From Thermoproteota archaeon (GTDB lineage Archaea > Korarchaeota > Korarchaeia > Korarchaeales > Korarchaeaceae), in the NCBI GenBank assembly GCA_026986575.1, contig JALSOH010000004.1, positions 819,082 to 883,081 of the forward strand: a stretch of 64,000 bases of DNA, read 5' to 3'. Within the stretch, counting starts at the first letter, position 1. Each line of letters opens with the position of its first letter. Below, piece after piece: positions 39,715 to 49,435 of this stretch. Position numbers and translations under genes: made by a program. The notes below the pieces were generated by a model, which made no database searches, was not told where the DNA came from, and saw only the letters and a program-made list of their open reading frames with translations.

Positions 39715-41205
39715 TCACAATTTTTTGTAGCAGGTCTCGAGATCCCTCTTCAATCTGATGACTGGGTCCTCCCATGTGAAGGTCCCACTTTCCTCATCCC
39801 ACAGATCTATGGGGAGCCTCCAGCCGGGACTTATATCCAAGAAATCCTCCGCCAAGACGAGTTGATCTCCGTAAACGGACTTCACCGTCCAAATGAGATC
39901 CCCCCTCACTTCTGGCCTAGTGACTAGGAGAGATAGCAGCCCCTCGAAGTCATCCCCCTCTATGTAATGGGTGAGTACCGATCCCACCGACCTCAGGAAG
40001 GAGTGGAAGGGTACCATCTCATCATGGGAGGCCCTCACTATCAGCATGAGTTTTTCCATGCCCTTAGGGATCCCGTGGAAGTACATCCTGATTATGTAAC
40101 CGTCCTTCCTAAGTCGGCCGAGCCTCTTCTTCGGATCAGGAATTCTCTCCCTCTTCAGGAGCTTGTGAGTGACCTTCCCGTGCTTGAAAACTAGGTTAAG
40201 TATCCTCAAATCGTTCCTGTCGAGGTTGGACTCTGGCCTCTTCACGAGAATGCTCAGGTCCCTCCCCCTAGGCTGGGGCCTGGACAATTCCTCCACCGAA
40301 TCGTACGGGCTCCTCCCAGCATCGAGAGAGAGGCCAAAGGCTGCGTCCTTCACGAGATACAGCGGGATCCTTCCATCTAGCGCATCTCTCAGGGCATCAA
40401 GACCCTGGTAGGGGTAGGACAAATATGCCCTCACGTGCGCCTCTGATGAGACCGGGATGTACGCGCTATAGGTGTACGGAAACCTCCAGAAGGCCTTCCT
40501 GCACTCTCTATTGTTGGGATACGTGATGAGGAGGGTCGTCAGACCTAACTTCCAGTTATCCACGTTCTCAGGTCCGAATATCATGCCAAGCATCCTCAGC
40601 TTCTTCAAAGACCTGCTCAGGGTGGCTCCGGTTATCCCCATCCCCCTGATCTCCCTGTCGGTAGCCAGAGGGTTCCTTGAGATGATCTCCATTATCTTGG
40701 CATCGCTCTCGGTGATCCTCACCGTCATCCCAGCGATCCTGTTGAGGAGTGCCATGTAAGTTTCGAAGTCGAGGGATCCCCTCTCAGCGGCAAGGTTAAC
40801 TATCATAAGCAGGTTCCCCACGACCCTATCCATCTCTCCCTCTTGGATGAGCGAGAGGAGTTCGTATGGATCGTAATCATGGAACGGACCTTCTGGGGAA
40901 ATTCTACACCTCAACCACAGCTTCTTGGGGGATCCCGAGTAGTACCAAGCCACATCGTGCACCTGAGGTACAACATCCACCCCCAGGACGGTATGTAGGA
41001 TCACCGCCTCCTTTTTCAGGACCTGAGGAAGCCACTTGACCACTCCTCTAGCCACGAGGAGGGCCTCTCCATCGTAACCGGTGCATCTGCCCCCAGGCAC
41101 TTCGTCGACGATCCTCACCTCCTTGGGGATAGGTCTGCGGATCTCCAATCCAGTCGACTTAGAGACATCCTCGATCTTCGCGTGCAGCTCACTGACCGGA
41201 TCCAT
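39715..41205 (-). CDS. Tandem winged-helix protein, copy A of a ~500-residue family
   Basis: 496 residues, start ATG 41205 with a TAATATT box ~28 bp upstream. The N-terminal ~100 residues end in VPQVHDVAWYYSG. Two Lrp-like modules follow: HTH 1 at ~175-225 (DAKIMEIISRNPLATDREI), HTH 2 at ~325-370 (DLRILNLVFKHGKVTHKLL), each followed by a RAM-like strand/helix region. The C-terminus has DISPGWRLPIDLWDEESGTFTW. Closely related to the next gene and to a decayed copy at 56.8-58.0 kb. Probable DNA-binding regulator; family not recognised. Confidence 0.7.
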   Translation of the reverse strand: MDPVSELHAKIEDVSKSTGLEIRRPIPKEVRIVDEVPGGRCTGYDGEALLVARGVVKWLPQVLKKEAVILHTVLGVDVVPQVHDVAWYYSGSPKKLWLRCRISPEGPFHDYDPYELLSLIQEGEMDRVVGNLLMIVNLAAERGSLDFETYMALLNRIAGMTVRITESDAKIMEIISRNPLATDREIRGMGITGATLSRSLKKLRMLGMIFGPENVDNWKLGLTTLLITYPNNRECRKAFWRFPYTYSAYIPVSSEAHVRAYLSYPYQGLDALRDALDGRIPLYLVKDAAFGLSLDAGRSPYDSVEELSRPQPRGRDLSILVKRPESNLDRNDLRILNLVFKHGKVTHKLLKRERIPDPKKRLGRLRKDGYIIRMYFHGIPKGMEKLMLIVRASHDEMVPFHSFLRSVGSVLTHYIEGDDFEGLLSLLVTRPEVRGDLIWTVKSVYGDQLVLAEDFLDISPGWRLPIDLWDEESGTFTWEDPVIRLKRDLETCYKKL

Positions 41206-41279
41206 TCGGTTGTTCAACCTCCCTAACCAATATTACCTTTCCTCCACCAGTCCCCGGGCCCGTCCGGTGTGATTACCAC

Positions 41280-42788
41280 CTATCCTTGTGGGACCGGCCG
41301 GGATCGAGGGAGGCACGCCTCGAGATCATCCTTTAACCTCTCGAGGGGTTCCCTCCACAAGAATTTCTGCGACCCCTCGTCCCACAGATCTATAGGGAGC
41401 CTCCAACCCGGCTTAATGTCCACGAAATCCTCGGCCAGAAGCACTCTTTCACCGTATACGGTCCTGACCACTCTGAGGATATCTCCCCTAATCTCCGGAG
41501 GGGCCATAAGCACGCCCATCAGGTAGGAGACCTCGCCCTCTAGGTGCTGAATCATCACCGATCCTCCGGATCCCAGCACCCCCAACAGGGTATCCATCTC
41601 CTCGGGTTCATCCTCCACTAGGACGATCGCCTTCTCTACGCCCATGGGTAACGTTAACCGATAGAGACTGGTGATGATTCCGGCCCCCCTCAGCTTTCTG
41701 AGCCTGGACCTAGCTTCCGGAACCCCCTTCTTGGTCAGGATGTTGACAGACACCTTTCCCTCCTCGAGGACGAAATTAAGCACGTCCAAATCGAGCTCAT
41801 CAACTCGGACAGGTGGAGACGAGGTGGCAATGAACTCCACCTTTTCTCCAAACTCTTGAGGGGTGGCCAGATTTATCGCCTCGAATGGGTCCCTGACGGG
41901 GTCGAAATTGAATCTCAGGAGGGTTTTCCTAACTAGGAATACAACCAATCCAAGGTTCCGAAGCGAGAGCAGATCGTCCATCCCTTCATATGGGTATGAG
42001 AGGTATGCATGGGCGTCGATCTCGCTCGACACAGGTACCAGCATGCTGCGCGTGTAAGGAAACCTCCAGAAAGCCTTTCTGCACTCCTTTCGGTTGGAGA
42101 ACGATATCAGAAAGGTAGACAGCCCTAGTTTATGATAATCCACGTTCTCGGGGCCAGATATCATCCTCAGAGTCCTCAACTTCCCCATGGACTTCGTCAA
42201 GGAGGATCCTCCCATCCCCCTCCTCCTGATGTAGTCAGAGGTAGCGCGTGGATTCTCTGAGATTATCCTTATCAGCTTCACGTCAGAGTCGGAGAGACCA
42301 ACGCTAGAACCGACGATCTTGTAGAGGAGAGCCATGTACATCGGGAACTCTAAGTTACCCAGCCTAGCTGAGGCGTTCACTATCCTGATGATGGTTCCGA
42401 GCACCCTGTTCCTCTCCTTAGAAGGGACCATGGAGAAAAGCCTGTAGGGGTCGTAATCGTGAAATGGGCTCCCAGGCGGGATTCTACACCTCTCCCAGAG
42501 TTCTCTGGGGGCCGAAGAGTATATCCACGCCAAGTCGTGAACTTGGGGGACCTCATCCACCTCTGGCACCATTAGAGAGATCGCAGCTTCCTTCGCCAAT
42601 ACATACGGGAGCACGTCCCCAGCCAATTTGGCGGATACTAGGAGGGCGTCGCCTTTCCTATGAGTGCACCCATTGCTGGGAAGATCCTCGACTACTCTCA
42701 TCCGCTTGGGGACGCTCCTCCTAATCTCCAAGCCAAGTAGTCTAGAGGCCCTCTCAACTTCCCTCTCGACTTCAGCGATAAAGCCCAT
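41280..42788 (-). CDS. Tandem winged-helix protein, copy B of a ~500-residue family
   Basis: 502 residues, similar to copy A throughout: VPQVHDLAWIYS, PFHDYDPYRLFSM, VKLIRIISENPRATSDYIRR (HTH 1), FGPENVDYHKLGLS-like linker, KAFWRFPYTRS, DLDVLNFVLEEGKVSVNILT (HTH 2) and DIKPGWRLPIDLWDE. Its own ATAAATTAAT box at 42810-42819 lies ~27 bp before the ATG, so it is probably leaderless. Lies 75 bp upstream of copy A on the same strand. Confidence 0.7.
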   Translation of the reverse strand: MGFIAEVEREVERASRLLGLEIRRSVPKRMRVVEDLPSNGCTHRKGDALLVSAKLAGDVLPYVLAKEAAISLMVPEVDEVPQVHDLAWIYSSAPRELWERCRIPPGSPFHDYDPYRLFSMVPSKERNRVLGTIIRIVNASARLGNLEFPMYMALLYKIVGSSVGLSDSDVKLIRIISENPRATSDYIRRRGMGGSSLTKSMGKLRTLRMISGPENVDYHKLGLSTFLISFSNRKECRKAFWRFPYTRSMLVPVSSEIDAHAYLSYPYEGMDDLLSLRNLGLVVFLVRKTLLRFNFDPVRDPFEAINLATPQEFGEKVEFIATSSPPVRVDELDLDVLNFVLEEGKVSVNILTKKGVPEARSRLRKLRGAGIITSLYRLTLPMGVEKAIVLVEDEPEEMDTLLGVLGSGGSVMIQHLEGEVSYLMGVLMAPPEIRGDILRVVRTVYGERVLLAEDFVDIKPGWRLPIDLWDEGSQKFLWREPLERLKDDLEACLPRSRPVPQG

Positions 42789-44716: not shown

Positions 44717-45418
44717 TTGAGGACGATCCTTATCGGGGTCGAAGATCTCGGAGTGAGGCTAGCTGAGAGGCTCATATCCACTGTCAAGAGGTCGTCCTTA
44801 TTGGAGAGGGGTGCTAAGCTCATCCTAGAGACCTACTACGTGGACGATTCCGGGAGGAGGGAGAGGCTCAGAGCATCCTACGAGCTCGACGATACATTCC
44901 TCGGGGAGAGCGAAACCCTAGTGGAGAAACTAGCCCTCGGGATCCACAAGCTGAGGGTGATACCCAAGAAGAGAGGCCTGATCTTCCCAGAGGTCAGGGG
45001 TGAGCTTAGGGTTGAGCCTGAGGACGAGGAGATAAGGGCGGTGGCAGAGGTCTATCAGCGAGCGATCCCCAGGGGAAGGGTGGCGAGGTGGTACGAGCCC
45101 CTCCTCTTCATGCTACTGGCCGGCATGATCGGCTTAGCTCTGGGAGCGATCAGGCTAGCGGCGTTCGATCCCTCAACTCCGTCCATATACCTGAAATTCC
45201 TCCTCCTCTCCTCCGTTCCCGCCTCTGTCCTCCACGCCCTCCTGTTCTTCGGAAAAGACTTCACGGATCAGCCGTCTGACGAGGTCGTGAGATCCCTTCT
45301 AAGGAGTATATCTCACTTACGTGTCCGGTCTGGGAGCCGCCTTCCTCCTCGACTATCTCTACCTGATGTTTCCCCGCCTGCAGCTCCCTTTCAGCATCTC
45401 CTTGGCGGGGATGCTTGA
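44717..45418 (+). CDS. Membrane protein, first gene of FtsZ-like/vWA operon, possibly frameshifted
   Basis: Up to 233 residues from TTG 44717. The start RTILIGVEDLGVRLAERLI resembles the first strand and loop of Rossmann/tubulin folds without the glycine-rich loop. A cytoplasmic part to ~120 is followed by two hydrophobic helices. After SISHLRV (~residue 203) this frame turns hydrophilic and proline-rich, while the overlapping +1 frame continues with hydrophobic sequence; the two may be one gene with a shift near 45320. Confidence 0.5.
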   Translation: MRTILIGVEDLGVRLAERLISTVKRSSLLERGAKLILETYYVDDSGRRERLRASYELDDTFLGESETLVEKLALGIHKLRVIPKKRGLIFPEVRGELRVEPEDEEIRAVAEVYQRAIPRGRVARWYEPLLFMLLAGMIGLALGAIRLAAFDPSTPSIYLKFLLLSSVPASVLHALLFFGKDFTDQPSDEVVRSLLRSISHLRVRSGSRLPPRLSLPDVSPPAAPFQHLLGGDA

Positions 45419-46217
45419 GGAAGAGATAATAATCATCCTCCTCGGGAGCTATGGGTCCCTGACGGGGTTGGTGATCTGGCTCCTCAGAGAGCTCAGGGCG
45501 GCGTTACCCGAGGTTCTGATTCTGGAGAGCTGGATCTCAGTGAAGAGGAGACTCATCATGATGCTCTTGGCCTCTATGGCCACGGGAGGCGCCATAGCAT
45601 CAACCCTGACCTCTTACGTATTCGAGCTGAGGTACAGCTCGCTGCTGCTTCCGGCAATTACAATACCCGTTCTGTCCCTGCTGGCCGGACTGGTCGCGGG
45701 CCTCATATCCGAGTACCTGTCTAGAGATAGGAGGTGGGATCTGGCCGCACCGCTGTTCACCGCTGCCGGGACCTACACAGTAGTTCAAGCGGCCTTAAGC
45801 TTCATATTCAGCTTCTCATCCATTCTGGGGCTTCCAATATCCCCTCTGGAGCCGTTAGTGGGCTTGAACCTCGGCTCACCAGTCACTGGAGCCTTGATAG
45901 TCCTGTTACTCCTGAGGAGGATTAGTAAGATGAAGGAACCCTGCCTCTGCATTCTCTCGGTGAGGAAGGGGATCCCAACACGGAGGGAGGCCCAGTCGCC
46001 CCTAGAGGTCTTCGGTATCGCGATCTCTCACGAGGACAGGACTCTCAACTCCGCATGGAACATCTCCCAGCTCGAGGAAGGGCTGAAGGAGTTCAGACCG
46101 GGCAGCAGGCTCAGGCTGAGGATCGATCCAACCACAGGCCCCGCAGGGGAAGTCAGGAGAAATATCGTGTCCCTCGCGGAGTACGTGGTGTGGAGGTGCG
46201 GACACCCCCTGACCTAG
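45321..46217 (+). CDS. Multi-pass membrane protein with tubulin-like N-terminal half of a split domain
   Basis: Frame from GTG 45321 coding for about six transmembrane helices, then a cytoplasmic tail (EVFGIAISHEDRTLN, RLRIDPTTGPAGEVRRNIVSLAEYVV) whose pattern resembles the FtsZ region before the T4 loop (INTD.., TRGLGAGG..G). The next frame overlaps it by 28 bp and continues the same fold. Either three coupled genes or one gene broken by two shifts (near 45320 and 46190). Confidence 0.5.
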   Translation: MSGLGAAFLLDYLYLMFPRLQLPFSISLAGMLEEEIIIILLGSYGSLTGLVIWLLRELRAALPEVLILESWISVKRRLIMMLLASMATGGAIASTLTSYVFELRYSSLLLPAITIPVLSLLAGLVAGLISEYLSRDRRWDLAAPLFTAAGTYTVVQAALSFIFSFSSILGLPISPLEPLVGLNLGSPVTGALIVLLLLRRISKMKEPCLCILSVRKGIPTRREAQSPLEVFGIAISHEDRTLNSAWNISQLEEGLKEFRPGSRLRLRIDPTTGPAGEVRRNIVSLAEYVVWRCGHPLT

Positions 46218-46912
46218 CGTTGCTCTTGGTCGACGCCGTCAGACCCGACCTGATGGGGTCCCTTGCATCAATCCTCGATGAAGTGAGGGTTCTGAATGTG
46301 CCCCTTATATCACTGGTGATGTTCTCCTCGTCGAGGCACGAGGGCCTAGACGGTGCCCTTAGGGAGATGGGAGAGAGAAGCAACGTGGTGCTTCTAGCTG
46401 ATCTGGAAAGAGCCCTTTCACTGGGAGAGACCATGGAGGAATCGGTGGAGGCTTTTCTAGATGAACTGACCATCGCACTCGATCTCGTCATCAGCTCCGA
46501 CAGGAGGGGCGATCCCTCCTTCAGGCTGTCCGCCTCAACTTTGGGGAAGCTGTTAAGTCATCCCGAGAGGGTCGACCCCTTCGGGACCATCGGCCTTTCG
46601 ATGCTCGACCCGGAGGCCTGCATGCAGGCGCCCTCGCCCTACAACCTGAAAGACATGGCCGCCATGACGCTGCTCAACTCCATGGCTGGATTCGACGGGG
46701 AGGAGAGGGCGTGGGGACTCCTCCTAATGAGAGGGCCTCGTGATTGCATGTACCTCTGGGCGGCTAAGGGCGAACTGGAGAGGAGGCTCGGGAGGGGGAT
46801 CGTTGGTTACTCGGTTCAAACCTCGGATGGGCCGCTGATCATGGCCGTGATCATCTCCGGACTGGAGTTGAACGACATTCATCCCTTCAGTTCCACCGAG
46901 GAGGGGGAATAG
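46190..46912 (+). CDS. Degenerate FtsZ/tubulin-like protein
   Basis: 240 residues from GTG 46190. It aligns by eye with FtsZ from the T4 strand to the end: PDLALLLVDAVRPDLMGSLASIL in place of DLVF..GGGTGTG, SLVMFSSSRHEGLDGALREM for the EG..R...A helix, AFLDELTIALDLVI for the AF...D.VL helix, and RAWGLLLMRGPRDCMYL plus PLIMAVIISGLE for the C-terminal domain. The GTP-binding GGGTGTG is lost and the T7 NxDxxD is replaced by LSASTLG, so GTPase activity is unlikely. Confidence 0.55.
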   Translation: MEVRTPPDLALLLVDAVRPDLMGSLASILDEVRVLNVPLISLVMFSSSRHEGLDGALREMGERSNVVLLADLERALSLGETMEESVEAFLDELTIALDLVISSDRRGDPSFRLSASTLGKLLSHPERVDPFGTIGLSMLDPEACMQAPSPYNLKDMAAMTLLNSMAGFDGEERAWGLLLMRGPRDCMYLWAAKGELERRLGRGIVGYSVQTSDGPLIMAVIISGLELNDIHPFSSTEEGE

Positions 46913-46914
46913 GG

Positions 46915-47796
46915 ATGGGGCTCAGGGAATGTCTGCTGAGGACCCTGGTGATCCTCTTCGTGGTGTGGGTGTTCATCATCACGGTCAGCTACCTCCAATC
47001 ACCTCGCTCTTTCCTCCTGATCCTGGACGCATCCATCAGCATGAAGGAGCCGCTCTCAATCAATGGGAATATGTCCAAAATGGAGGCTGCTAAGCTGGCC
47101 ATCTCCCGCTTCTCCAGCTCCCTGAGAGGGGAAGACAGGGTCGGCCTAATCGTCTTCTACGACTGTGACGACATAAAACTGGAGCTCCCACTGGGAAGTC
47201 CTCCTGAAGAGCTGATGAGCGCGGTCAGTAGGGTGGAGCCGGAGAACCAGACTCCCATAGCCGGAGCCCTGAGATTCGCTGACAAGCTGCTCCGGAACGT
47301 TACATTGGAGGGTAGGGAGTACCATGTGGTGCTCATAACCGATGGTGTCGAGTACTGCGGTGGCGACGCCTTGATGGCAGCGGAGGACCTCTGGATCCAC
47401 AGCGGCAGGAGAGTGAGGATCGATGTGATATCCGTAATGATCCCTCCATACCTGGAGGAGGTCATAGGCGGAGGGGGAATAGAGGGAGGACCGTCTTTCG
47501 GGGGAATTCCGACGGGGAGGAAGATACCGGTCAGGCCCCTGTATGTGAAGATGGCGGAAATGACGGGAGGCACGTTTGTGGATGTGAGGGATGCGGACAG
47601 CTTCGGTAACGCCATGGAGAGGATAGCTGAGTCGAATTGGGAGGTGGTCAAGTACCACTACTGGGGCGTGATCTTCCCGCTTGGGCTGCTCATCTGTCTA
47701 GGACTGAGGGCCCGGGAAGAGAGGTGGTGCGTGCTCCGGTGCCTCACCCTAGGTGGTAGGGAGAGTGAGCACCTACCGGAGAGGGCCCATGACTAA
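46915..47796 (+). CDS. Membrane-anchored von Willebrand factor A protein
   Basis: 293 residues: N-terminal helix (TLVILFVVWVFIITVSYL), a vWA domain with full MIDAS residues (DASISM, QTPIAGAL, ITDG) and a second helix (WGVIFPLGLLICLGL) near 250. Two bases separate it from the FtsZ-like stop, so the genes are co-transcribed. vWA proteins bind partners through Mg2+; association with FtsZ-like genes has been noted before for proposed membrane-remodelling systems. Confidence 0.75.
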   Translation: MGLRECLLRTLVILFVVWVFIITVSYLQSPRSFLLILDASISMKEPLSINGNMSKMEAAKLAISRFSSSLRGEDRVGLIVFYDCDDIKLELPLGSPPEELMSAVSRVEPENQTPIAGALRFADKLLRNVTLEGREYHVVLITDGVEYCGGDALMAAEDLWIHSGRRVRIDVISVMIPPYLEEVIGGGGIEGGPSFGGIPTGRKIPVRPLYVKMAEMTGGTFVDVRDADSFGNAMERIAESNWEVVKYHYWGVIFPLGLLICLGLRAREERWCVLRCLTLGGRESEHLPERAHD

Positions 47797-48387: not shown

Positions 48388-48740
48388 GCTTTCACCGTAT
48401 TACTCATCATATATGTAATATAAGTGTTACTAATGTTCCACTGTTCCATTAATCGATTTTATGGCTACACTTCAGCCATCGCCATACCGCCTAGAGCCCC
48501 TAGCCGTCCCAAGCATCTAGGGCGCTCAGCACAGGAATCGCGCGATCATAGGGGTGGGCCGAGCTGGCAGAGTACCTTCCGTAAAGGCCCAATTAACCAC
48601 AGGACCTTTTGCTCCATGTTCCCGAGTAAAGGAGCTCAATCCCCTCGCTGATATAGGAGGATCGCTCATCCAGTGGTGAAGGGCTCCCCGTCACAAACAC
48701 TAAGCCATATATACTGTAATTGCTTGATGCTATAGATACT
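48388..48740. other. 353-bp intergenic region
   Basis: Carries promoter-like AT-rich stretches at both ends (near 48405 for the minus gene and CATATATACT near 48706 for vapB). No gene seen between them. Confidence 0.35.
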
Positions 48741-49010
48741 ATGTCTACCACAATCCAAGTGAGCAGGAGGACGAAAAGGGAGCTCGTTAAGTTCGTGTCC
48801 GAGCTTCAGTTGAAGCTCGGGAGGAGAGTGAGCTTCGACGAGGCGATTCTAACGCTGTTGAGGGAGAGGAAGAGATCGTACTCGGCGAGAAGGGAACTGA
48901 GAACCTTCAAGGGCATACTGTCAAGGGAGAAGGATGAAGTGAGGAGGGTCATGGAGGAGCTGAGGAGGGAGGAGGAGAGGAGACTTGAAATGCTCGGAAC
49001 TACCGAGTAG
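48741..49010 (+). CDS. vapB: VapB-type antitoxin
   Basis: 89 residues starting MSTTIQVSRRTKRELVKFV, followed by a long charged helix, as in archaeal VapB antitoxins. Overlaps vapC by 26 bp. ATG 48741 is preferred to TTG 48720, which lies too close to the TATA box. Confidence 0.75.
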   Translation: MSTTIQVSRRTKRELVKFVSELQLKLGRRVSFDEAILTLLRERKRSYSARRELRTFKGILSREKDEVRRVMEELRREEERRLEMLGTTE

Positions 49011-49435
49011 GCTAGCTATCGATTCCAGCGTGGTCCTGACATACCTCTTGGGGGAGTCCTTGGCTGATCTGGTCGAGGAGTGCATCCTCTTCTCCGACAG
49101 GGAGGTGTACCTTCCCAGCACTGCCCTAGCTGAGATATACTACGTGACCTGTCGGCTCAAGGGGAGGGAGGTGGCACGGAGGCTGGTCAGGACCTTGAAG
49201 GATAGCGAGACCGTGGAGATCGTCTCCGGCTTGGATGAGGTAGTGGGGGAGCTCAAATGCGACAGGGCCATCTCTTTAGCGGACTGCTACGTGATAGCCC
49301 TGGCCAGAACCATGGGTGCAGGCGGCTGTGTTCGCCAAGAGGGAGAAGGAGCTCGTCAGGGAGATGGAGAGGGTGTCCTTCAATGTAAATCTGCTGTTTT
49401 TGGAGGATTTAGGTGATGATACGCTCACCCGCTAG
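48985..49435 (+). pseudogene. vapC: VapC-type PIN toxin, frameshifted at C-terminus
   Basis: PIN motifs LAIDSSVVLTYLL, LPSTALAEIYYV and SLADCYVIALA are intact. Near 49320 one extra base moves the ending out of frame; the other frame continues AAVFAKREKELVREMERVSF to a stop at 49435, which is the normal VapC C-terminus including the last acidic residues. In the present frame the protein ends with a glycine-rich nonsense tail at 49416. Confidence 0.7.

Follow-up and report, generated by a model that had tools for sequence, protein, structure and literature searches.

A 64,000-nucleotide window from contig JALSOH010000004.1 of a Thermoproteota archaeon (genome G000, archaeal-type, 1.91 Mb in 11 contigs) carries, on its forward strand, a gene for a predicted membrane protein with FtsZ-like sequence on both sides of a hydrophobic block and, directly behind it, a gene for a von Willebrand factor A (vWA) protein (Table 1). 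We compared the locus with a sample of 29 genomes of the phylum and with larger genome sets. The membrane protein is very probably a homologue of FtsZ and CetZ, and its alignments indicate that the GTP-binding signature has been lost.

Table 1. Features of the tubulin-like gene and of the adjacent vWA gene (positions in the window)
Feature	Position	Strand	Basis or remark
Membrane-interrupted tubulin-like gene	44717..46912	+	three frames: 44717-45418, 45303-46217, 46190-46912
FtsZ-like S1-T1-H1, degenerate T1 loop, RTILIGVEDLGVRLAERLIS...	44717..44794	+	vs residues 1-26 of 4b45
Beta-rich stretch, possibly transthyretin-like	44795..45080	+	PF23194 weak in G022 relative; strands in low-confidence model of P0005
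Hydrophobic block (seven or eight helices predicted to span the membrane)	45089..45923	+	crosses frame change near 45.30 kb
FtsZ-like S2, S3, S4 and degenerate T4	45996..46246	+	profile alignments; crosses frame change near 46.21 kb
FtsZ-like S5 to H7 and T7-like loop (VISSDRRGDPSF)	46298..46528	+	profile alignments
FtsZ/CetZ-like C-terminal domain, S7 to S10	46583..46912	+	profile alignments
vWA protein, predicted membrane helix near each end	46915..47796	+	Pfam VWA_2, E 2.9e-15

Three reading frames form one gene

The three frames of the tubulin-like gene are pieces of a single gene, since two relatives span both breaks. P0001, from genome G015 (704 amino acids, aa), is continuous across them and is 95–98% identical to the three window pieces, and P0002 (731 aa, 65% identical) runs through both in a single unbroken frame. 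The G015 copy lies on a 34,457-base contig and belongs to the carrier closest to the window. Both window breaks are one-base length differences relative to G015 and are located at or beside short runs. The first-pass annotation had listed the open frames in their correct order and had suspected that a tubulin-like domain was split or frameshifted at 46190. Relative to G015 this frame change lies near 46.21 kb, but a second one was found near 45.30 kb and the first frame also belongs to the same protein, i.e., three frames and not two make up the gene.

Hydropathy analysis gave seven segments in the hydrophobic block, in P0001 and P0002 alike, and the low-confidence AlphaFold model of P0002 has eight long helices there. 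The beta-rich stretch preceding the block matched PF23194 in the G022 relative, below the family cut-off (E 0.013); the window piece gave no match to this family.

Similarity to FtsZ and CetZ

When the family profile was searched against the PDB with hmmsearch, the sole match below E 0.1 was 4b45, annotated as FtsZ, which we take to be CetZ2. Its E-value was 0.007 with a five-row profile (next best 0.29) and 6e-5 with a six-row profile that added two further lineages (next best 0.18). The alignment covered the C-terminal half; a second one at the first 22–26 residues was by itself not significant. CetZ_C (PF21011) was matched weakly by two of seven relatives scanned (best E 0.011; P0005 scored 14.1 bits, below the cut-off of 21.6) and not by the window piece.

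We then aligned the profile of nine family members (hhalign) with 44 FtsZ and FtsZ-like sequences of the phylum and, separately, with six divergent CetZ-like sequences. The part following the membrane block was alone sufficient for a match to either set, with P 1.7e-5 and 1.2e-5, respectively. When residues 1–26 were joined directly to S2, the local alignment grew to 300 columns, beginning at S1 and reaching the final strand (local P 4.1e-7; P 6.3e-10 in global mode). Local scores were 57.4 with the FtsZ set and 50.1 with the divergent set; 600 column shuffles, under a stricter reading of the output, did not exceed 25.4, and three unrelated profiles, i.e., a vWA, a winged-helix and a CoA-ligase family, the last presumably of Rossmann fold, gave 16.9–19.1. 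The global score was 53.4 for the joined construct and 38.8 without S1-H1; it was 32.7 with S1-H1 shuffled and 30.6 with S1-H1 displaced to the end, and neither of these control copies gave the 300-column extension. A first guess that S2 lies within the N-terminal part was rejected (global score 43.9 versus 53.4). Because S1-H1 joined to S2 scored best, the H1-S2 loop is the most likely site of the membrane block. The similarity thus extends colinearly over the whole tubulin-type fold, at profile level only. The profile alignments agree with the FtsZ-like pattern described in the first-pass annotation from just before T4 through the C-terminal domain; the N-terminal S1-H1 part of the tubulin-like unit had been missed there. 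One alignment was rejected because it wrongly paired a coiled coil with the C-terminal ends of P0001 and P0002.

Several results count against the homology. Cut points for the joined construct were picked after the global alignment had been seen. Taken by itself, the N-terminal piece scores weakly (P 0.024–0.046), being matched by 0 to 2 of 60 shuffles. A score of about 135, above the real one, appeared in one of 60 and in one of 100 shuffles, the cause of which was not found; it was absent from the 600 further shuffles read more strictly. Moreover, Pfam and NCBIfam gave no tubulin match for any window piece, and neither did single-protein PDB searches with the window pieces. AlphaFold runs with two and five sequences reached mean pLDDT (predicted local distance difference test) values of 37.1 and 38.5. 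These models, of P0002 and P0005, are too poor for use, and fold and mechanism therefore stay predictions; a Foldseek search with the first one gave no match at E ≤ 0.001, a result not meaningful at this model quality.

Active-site residues

The T4 signature GGGTG(S/T)G is missing in all nine relatives aligned, which bears out the loss of GGGTGTG noted in the first-pass annotation, and by eye the T1 loop is degenerate as well. On these alignments the protein has lost its GTP-binding signature. That the T7 aspartates were gone too was stated too strongly: a T7-like column holds Asp in eight of the nine relatives, the exception being G001, and in the window, with a register that differs between alignments.

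Distribution of the family

The profile built from the relatives found first matched in 4 of the 29 phylum genomes. Inspecting the neighbourhood of FtsZ-like genes added two carriers, G022, with a protein of 840 aa, and G007, with one of 608 aa located at a contig end, bringing the number to six (G000, G001, G003, G007, G015 and G022). With both additions included, the profile matched 9 of 394 archaeal genomes, i.e., the six carriers and G117, G179 and G221, whose short, weak matches were judged to be chance. Sequences from four of the carriers (G001, G007, G015 and G022) had gone into this profile. Another search matched 5 of the 394 genomes. A search of 61 genomes also gave five matches; one of these, G020, was dropped because of an internal stop and unrelated frames around it. 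A large protein database held five more full-length members of 829–859 aa, 74–98% identical to the G022 protein.

Neighbouring genes

The vWA gene starts 2 bp after the third frame. Its product has hydrophobic segments at residues 6–24 and 244–262 (hydropathy, window copy), and the residues of the metal-ion-dependent adhesion site (MIDAS) could be assigned by eye (DxSxS, Thr and Asp within 47011-47043, 47245-47271 and 47329-47358), in line with the intact MIDAS of the first-pass annotation. The G015 copy (L018 3210-4094) has Ala at the position of the presumed MIDAS Thr. Directly after the tubulin-like gene, a vWA gene was found in three of the six carriers (G000, G015 and G003); at E ≤ 1e-5 the protein occurs in 4 of the 29 phylum genomes, namely these three and, as a weak 34% match, G021. 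At the corresponding downstream position G001 encodes a 401 aa protein (L017 874-2079) with a weak CorA match below cut-off (E 0.0024).

In carriers G007 and G022 the membrane tubulin-like gene is part of a close-set, same-strand operon. It is headed by a protein that we call half-FtsZ: it has GGGTGSG and matches PF00091 (E 1.7e-15 and 5.5e-15, respectively), shows no match to a C-terminal domain and by eye ends after helix H7. Membrane and coiled-coil proteins are encoded between the two genes. Within the 29 genomes, clear orthologues of half-FtsZ (E 1e-69 or better) are confined to G007 and G022, all remaining matches being at E 5e-12 or weaker. Its profile is weakly similar to the N terminus of the membrane tubulin-like protein (P 0.024) and not similar to the part following the membrane block (P 0.62).

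Soluble FtsZ-like proteins were seen as well. Genomes G009–G012, G004 and G021, which gave no match to the membrane tubulin-like protein, have tandem arrays of three to five genes for such proteins (323–360 aa; L056 5592-11158, L057, L058, L059, L060 and L061, some cut by contig ends), and the arrays also contain a small gene (about 100 aa). In sister genera there is a soluble FtsZ/CetZ-like protein that is divergent and about 400 aa long (L062 6041-7237, L067 5319-6524 and L068 6255-7454), with CetZ_C above cut-off in two of three tested.

Elsewhere in the window, 39715-42788 encodes two proteins side by side, 500 and 502 aa long, that are alike by eye and look like a tandem duplication; of their winged-helix matches one is above and one below cut-off. 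At 48720-49416, a small gene and the gene behind it, whose product was labelled PIN-type by eye, are a possible toxin-antitoxin pair. The frame of the PIN-type gene (48985-49416) departs from that of the G015 copy near 49.32 kb.

Discussion

We tentatively propose that this FtsZ-homologous membrane protein, devoid of a GTP signature, is an anchor or end-cap for FtsZ-type filaments, and we give this explanation as a whole a little less than an even chance. S1-H1 and the part following the membrane block would fold together on the cytoplasmic side, which requires an even number of membrane helices, i.e., the eight of the poor models and not the seven from hydropathy. The protein would not bind GTP but may present its T7 side to an FtsZ-type subunit that holds GTP, and a subunit unable to bind GTP could occupy only one end of such a filament. 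The filament would hence start or end at the membrane, where the location of the subunit would fix that end. The vWA domain lies between two predicted membrane helices and is therefore perhaps outside the cell; it might couple the filament-end site to the envelope. For G007 and G022 the probable partner is the half-FtsZ encoded in their operon; for the window genome, only one of its two ordinary FtsZ proteins could take this role.

Gene content and residues provide arguments against such an anchor. The gene order that the first-pass annotation had suggested looking for in relatives is present in half of the carriers, whereas the vWA protein could not be matched in G001, G007 or G022. Four of six carriers, the window genome included, are without half-FtsZ, so neither partner is general. 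In addition, hydropathy counts seven helices, G001 is without the T7-like Asp, and the G000, G015 and G001 copies are all changed in frame, which may mean decay.

In a rather unlikely alternative, the protein belongs to a membrane complex resembling a transporter or channel, where its tubulin-type domain is a mere scaffold, and it has no contact with FtsZ filaments. The missing T4 in all relatives aligned and the large hydrophobic block would fit such a complex; the block gave a weak EMC6-arch match (E 0.084) and a weak PDB match to an ECF-type 'substrate binding' subunit (E 0.29). The absence of half-FtsZ from the window genome and the CorA-like gene downstream in G001 point the same way. However, the operon of G007 and G022 begins with a protein carrying the FtsZ GTP-binding signature, and no transporter family was matched above cut-off.

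We also considered a two-part tubulin, which we regard as unlikely. A soluble, GTP-binding half ending after H7 would meet a GTP-dead membrane partner that supplies the activating C-terminal half with its T7-type Asp. Hydrolysis would take place only where both meet on the membrane, and the membrane protein would therefore serve as anchor and GTPase activator at once. In place of the soluble half, which the window lineage does not have, an external vWA protein would join the membrane tubulin there and connect the cytoskeleton with the cell surface.

Decay of the window-lineage gene to a pseudogene, its frame changes being genuine, appears unlikely as well. Such changes were found in G000 (two), in G015 (one, close to the C terminus) and in G001 (one, the two frames being 33% and 30% identical), at differing places, and the gene at 48985-49416 is also shifted in frame relative to G015. 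Yet the ratio of nonsynonymous to synonymous substitution rates (dN/dS) between window and G015 is 0.19, 0.21 and 0.16 for the three pieces, i.e., purifying selection acts on each, and falls inside the range of eight neighbouring genes (0.04–0.34, one gene covered only in part). P0002 and P0003–P0007 are unbroken, and the frame changes coincide with short runs or adjoin them, where assembly errors often fall. As all pieces are under purifying selection, the protein was selected as a whole until recently, and the frame shifts in the window gene would be either recent or assembly errors.

That the FtsZ likeness is a chance resemblance among unrelated alpha/beta domains is very improbable: identity in the profile alignments is just about 10–20%, the models lend no three-dimensional support and the shuffle outliers lack an explanation, but the colinear end-to-end match, C-terminal domain included, exceeds 600 shuffles and three unrelated profiles, the sole significant PDB match is an FtsZ-type protein, and CetZ_C matches weakly.

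The proposed filament anchor resembles known proteins in part. CetZ, an archaeal tubulin-like protein that is soluble and binds GTP, is nearest by its PDB match and by the weak CetZ_C matches; unlike it, the family described here has no T4 and inserts about 270 hydrophobic residues between its H1-like and S2-like parts. Ordinary archaeal FtsZ, of which the window genome has two (L015 and L016), aligns by profile over the whole fold. It is not a membrane protein, however, matches both PF00091 and PF12327 and retains GGGTGTG. According to the available parts of the paper, the FtsZl1 family is FtsZ-like, tied to vWA genes and proposed to remodel membranes, and a transposon-disrupted Sulfolobus member has N-terminal transmembrane helices (Makarova and Koonin 2010, PMC2875224). 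As far as those parts describe it, FtsZl1 shares with our protein the FtsZ likeness and the vWA link; our family differs in having no GTP-binding loop, in a C-terminal domain that is its best-matching part and in that the window genome gave no Tubulin_2 (PF13809) match at E ≤ 0.01. No such protein was found described in titles and abstract openings of the open-licence literature, supplements not included, nor in the available parts of PMC9723716, PMC9856176 and PMC5898192.

Altogether, the initial interpretation as a tubulin-like, signature-less, membrane-fused protein with a vWA neighbour is supported in part, with the first frame and S1-H1 added and the T7 loss reduced. To our knowledge, nearly all known members of the tubulin superfamily are soluble and depend on additional proteins such as SepF or FtsA for tethering to the membrane. 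A multi-pass membrane block inside a tubulin-type fold would, if true, be a new architecture. In the available part of the published review of the FtsZl1 paper, the question was raised how a cytoplasmic FtsZ-like protein and an exported vWA protein, encoded side by side, cooperate (PMC2875224). A membrane-crossing tubulin-like protein, if true, would be such a link between the two.
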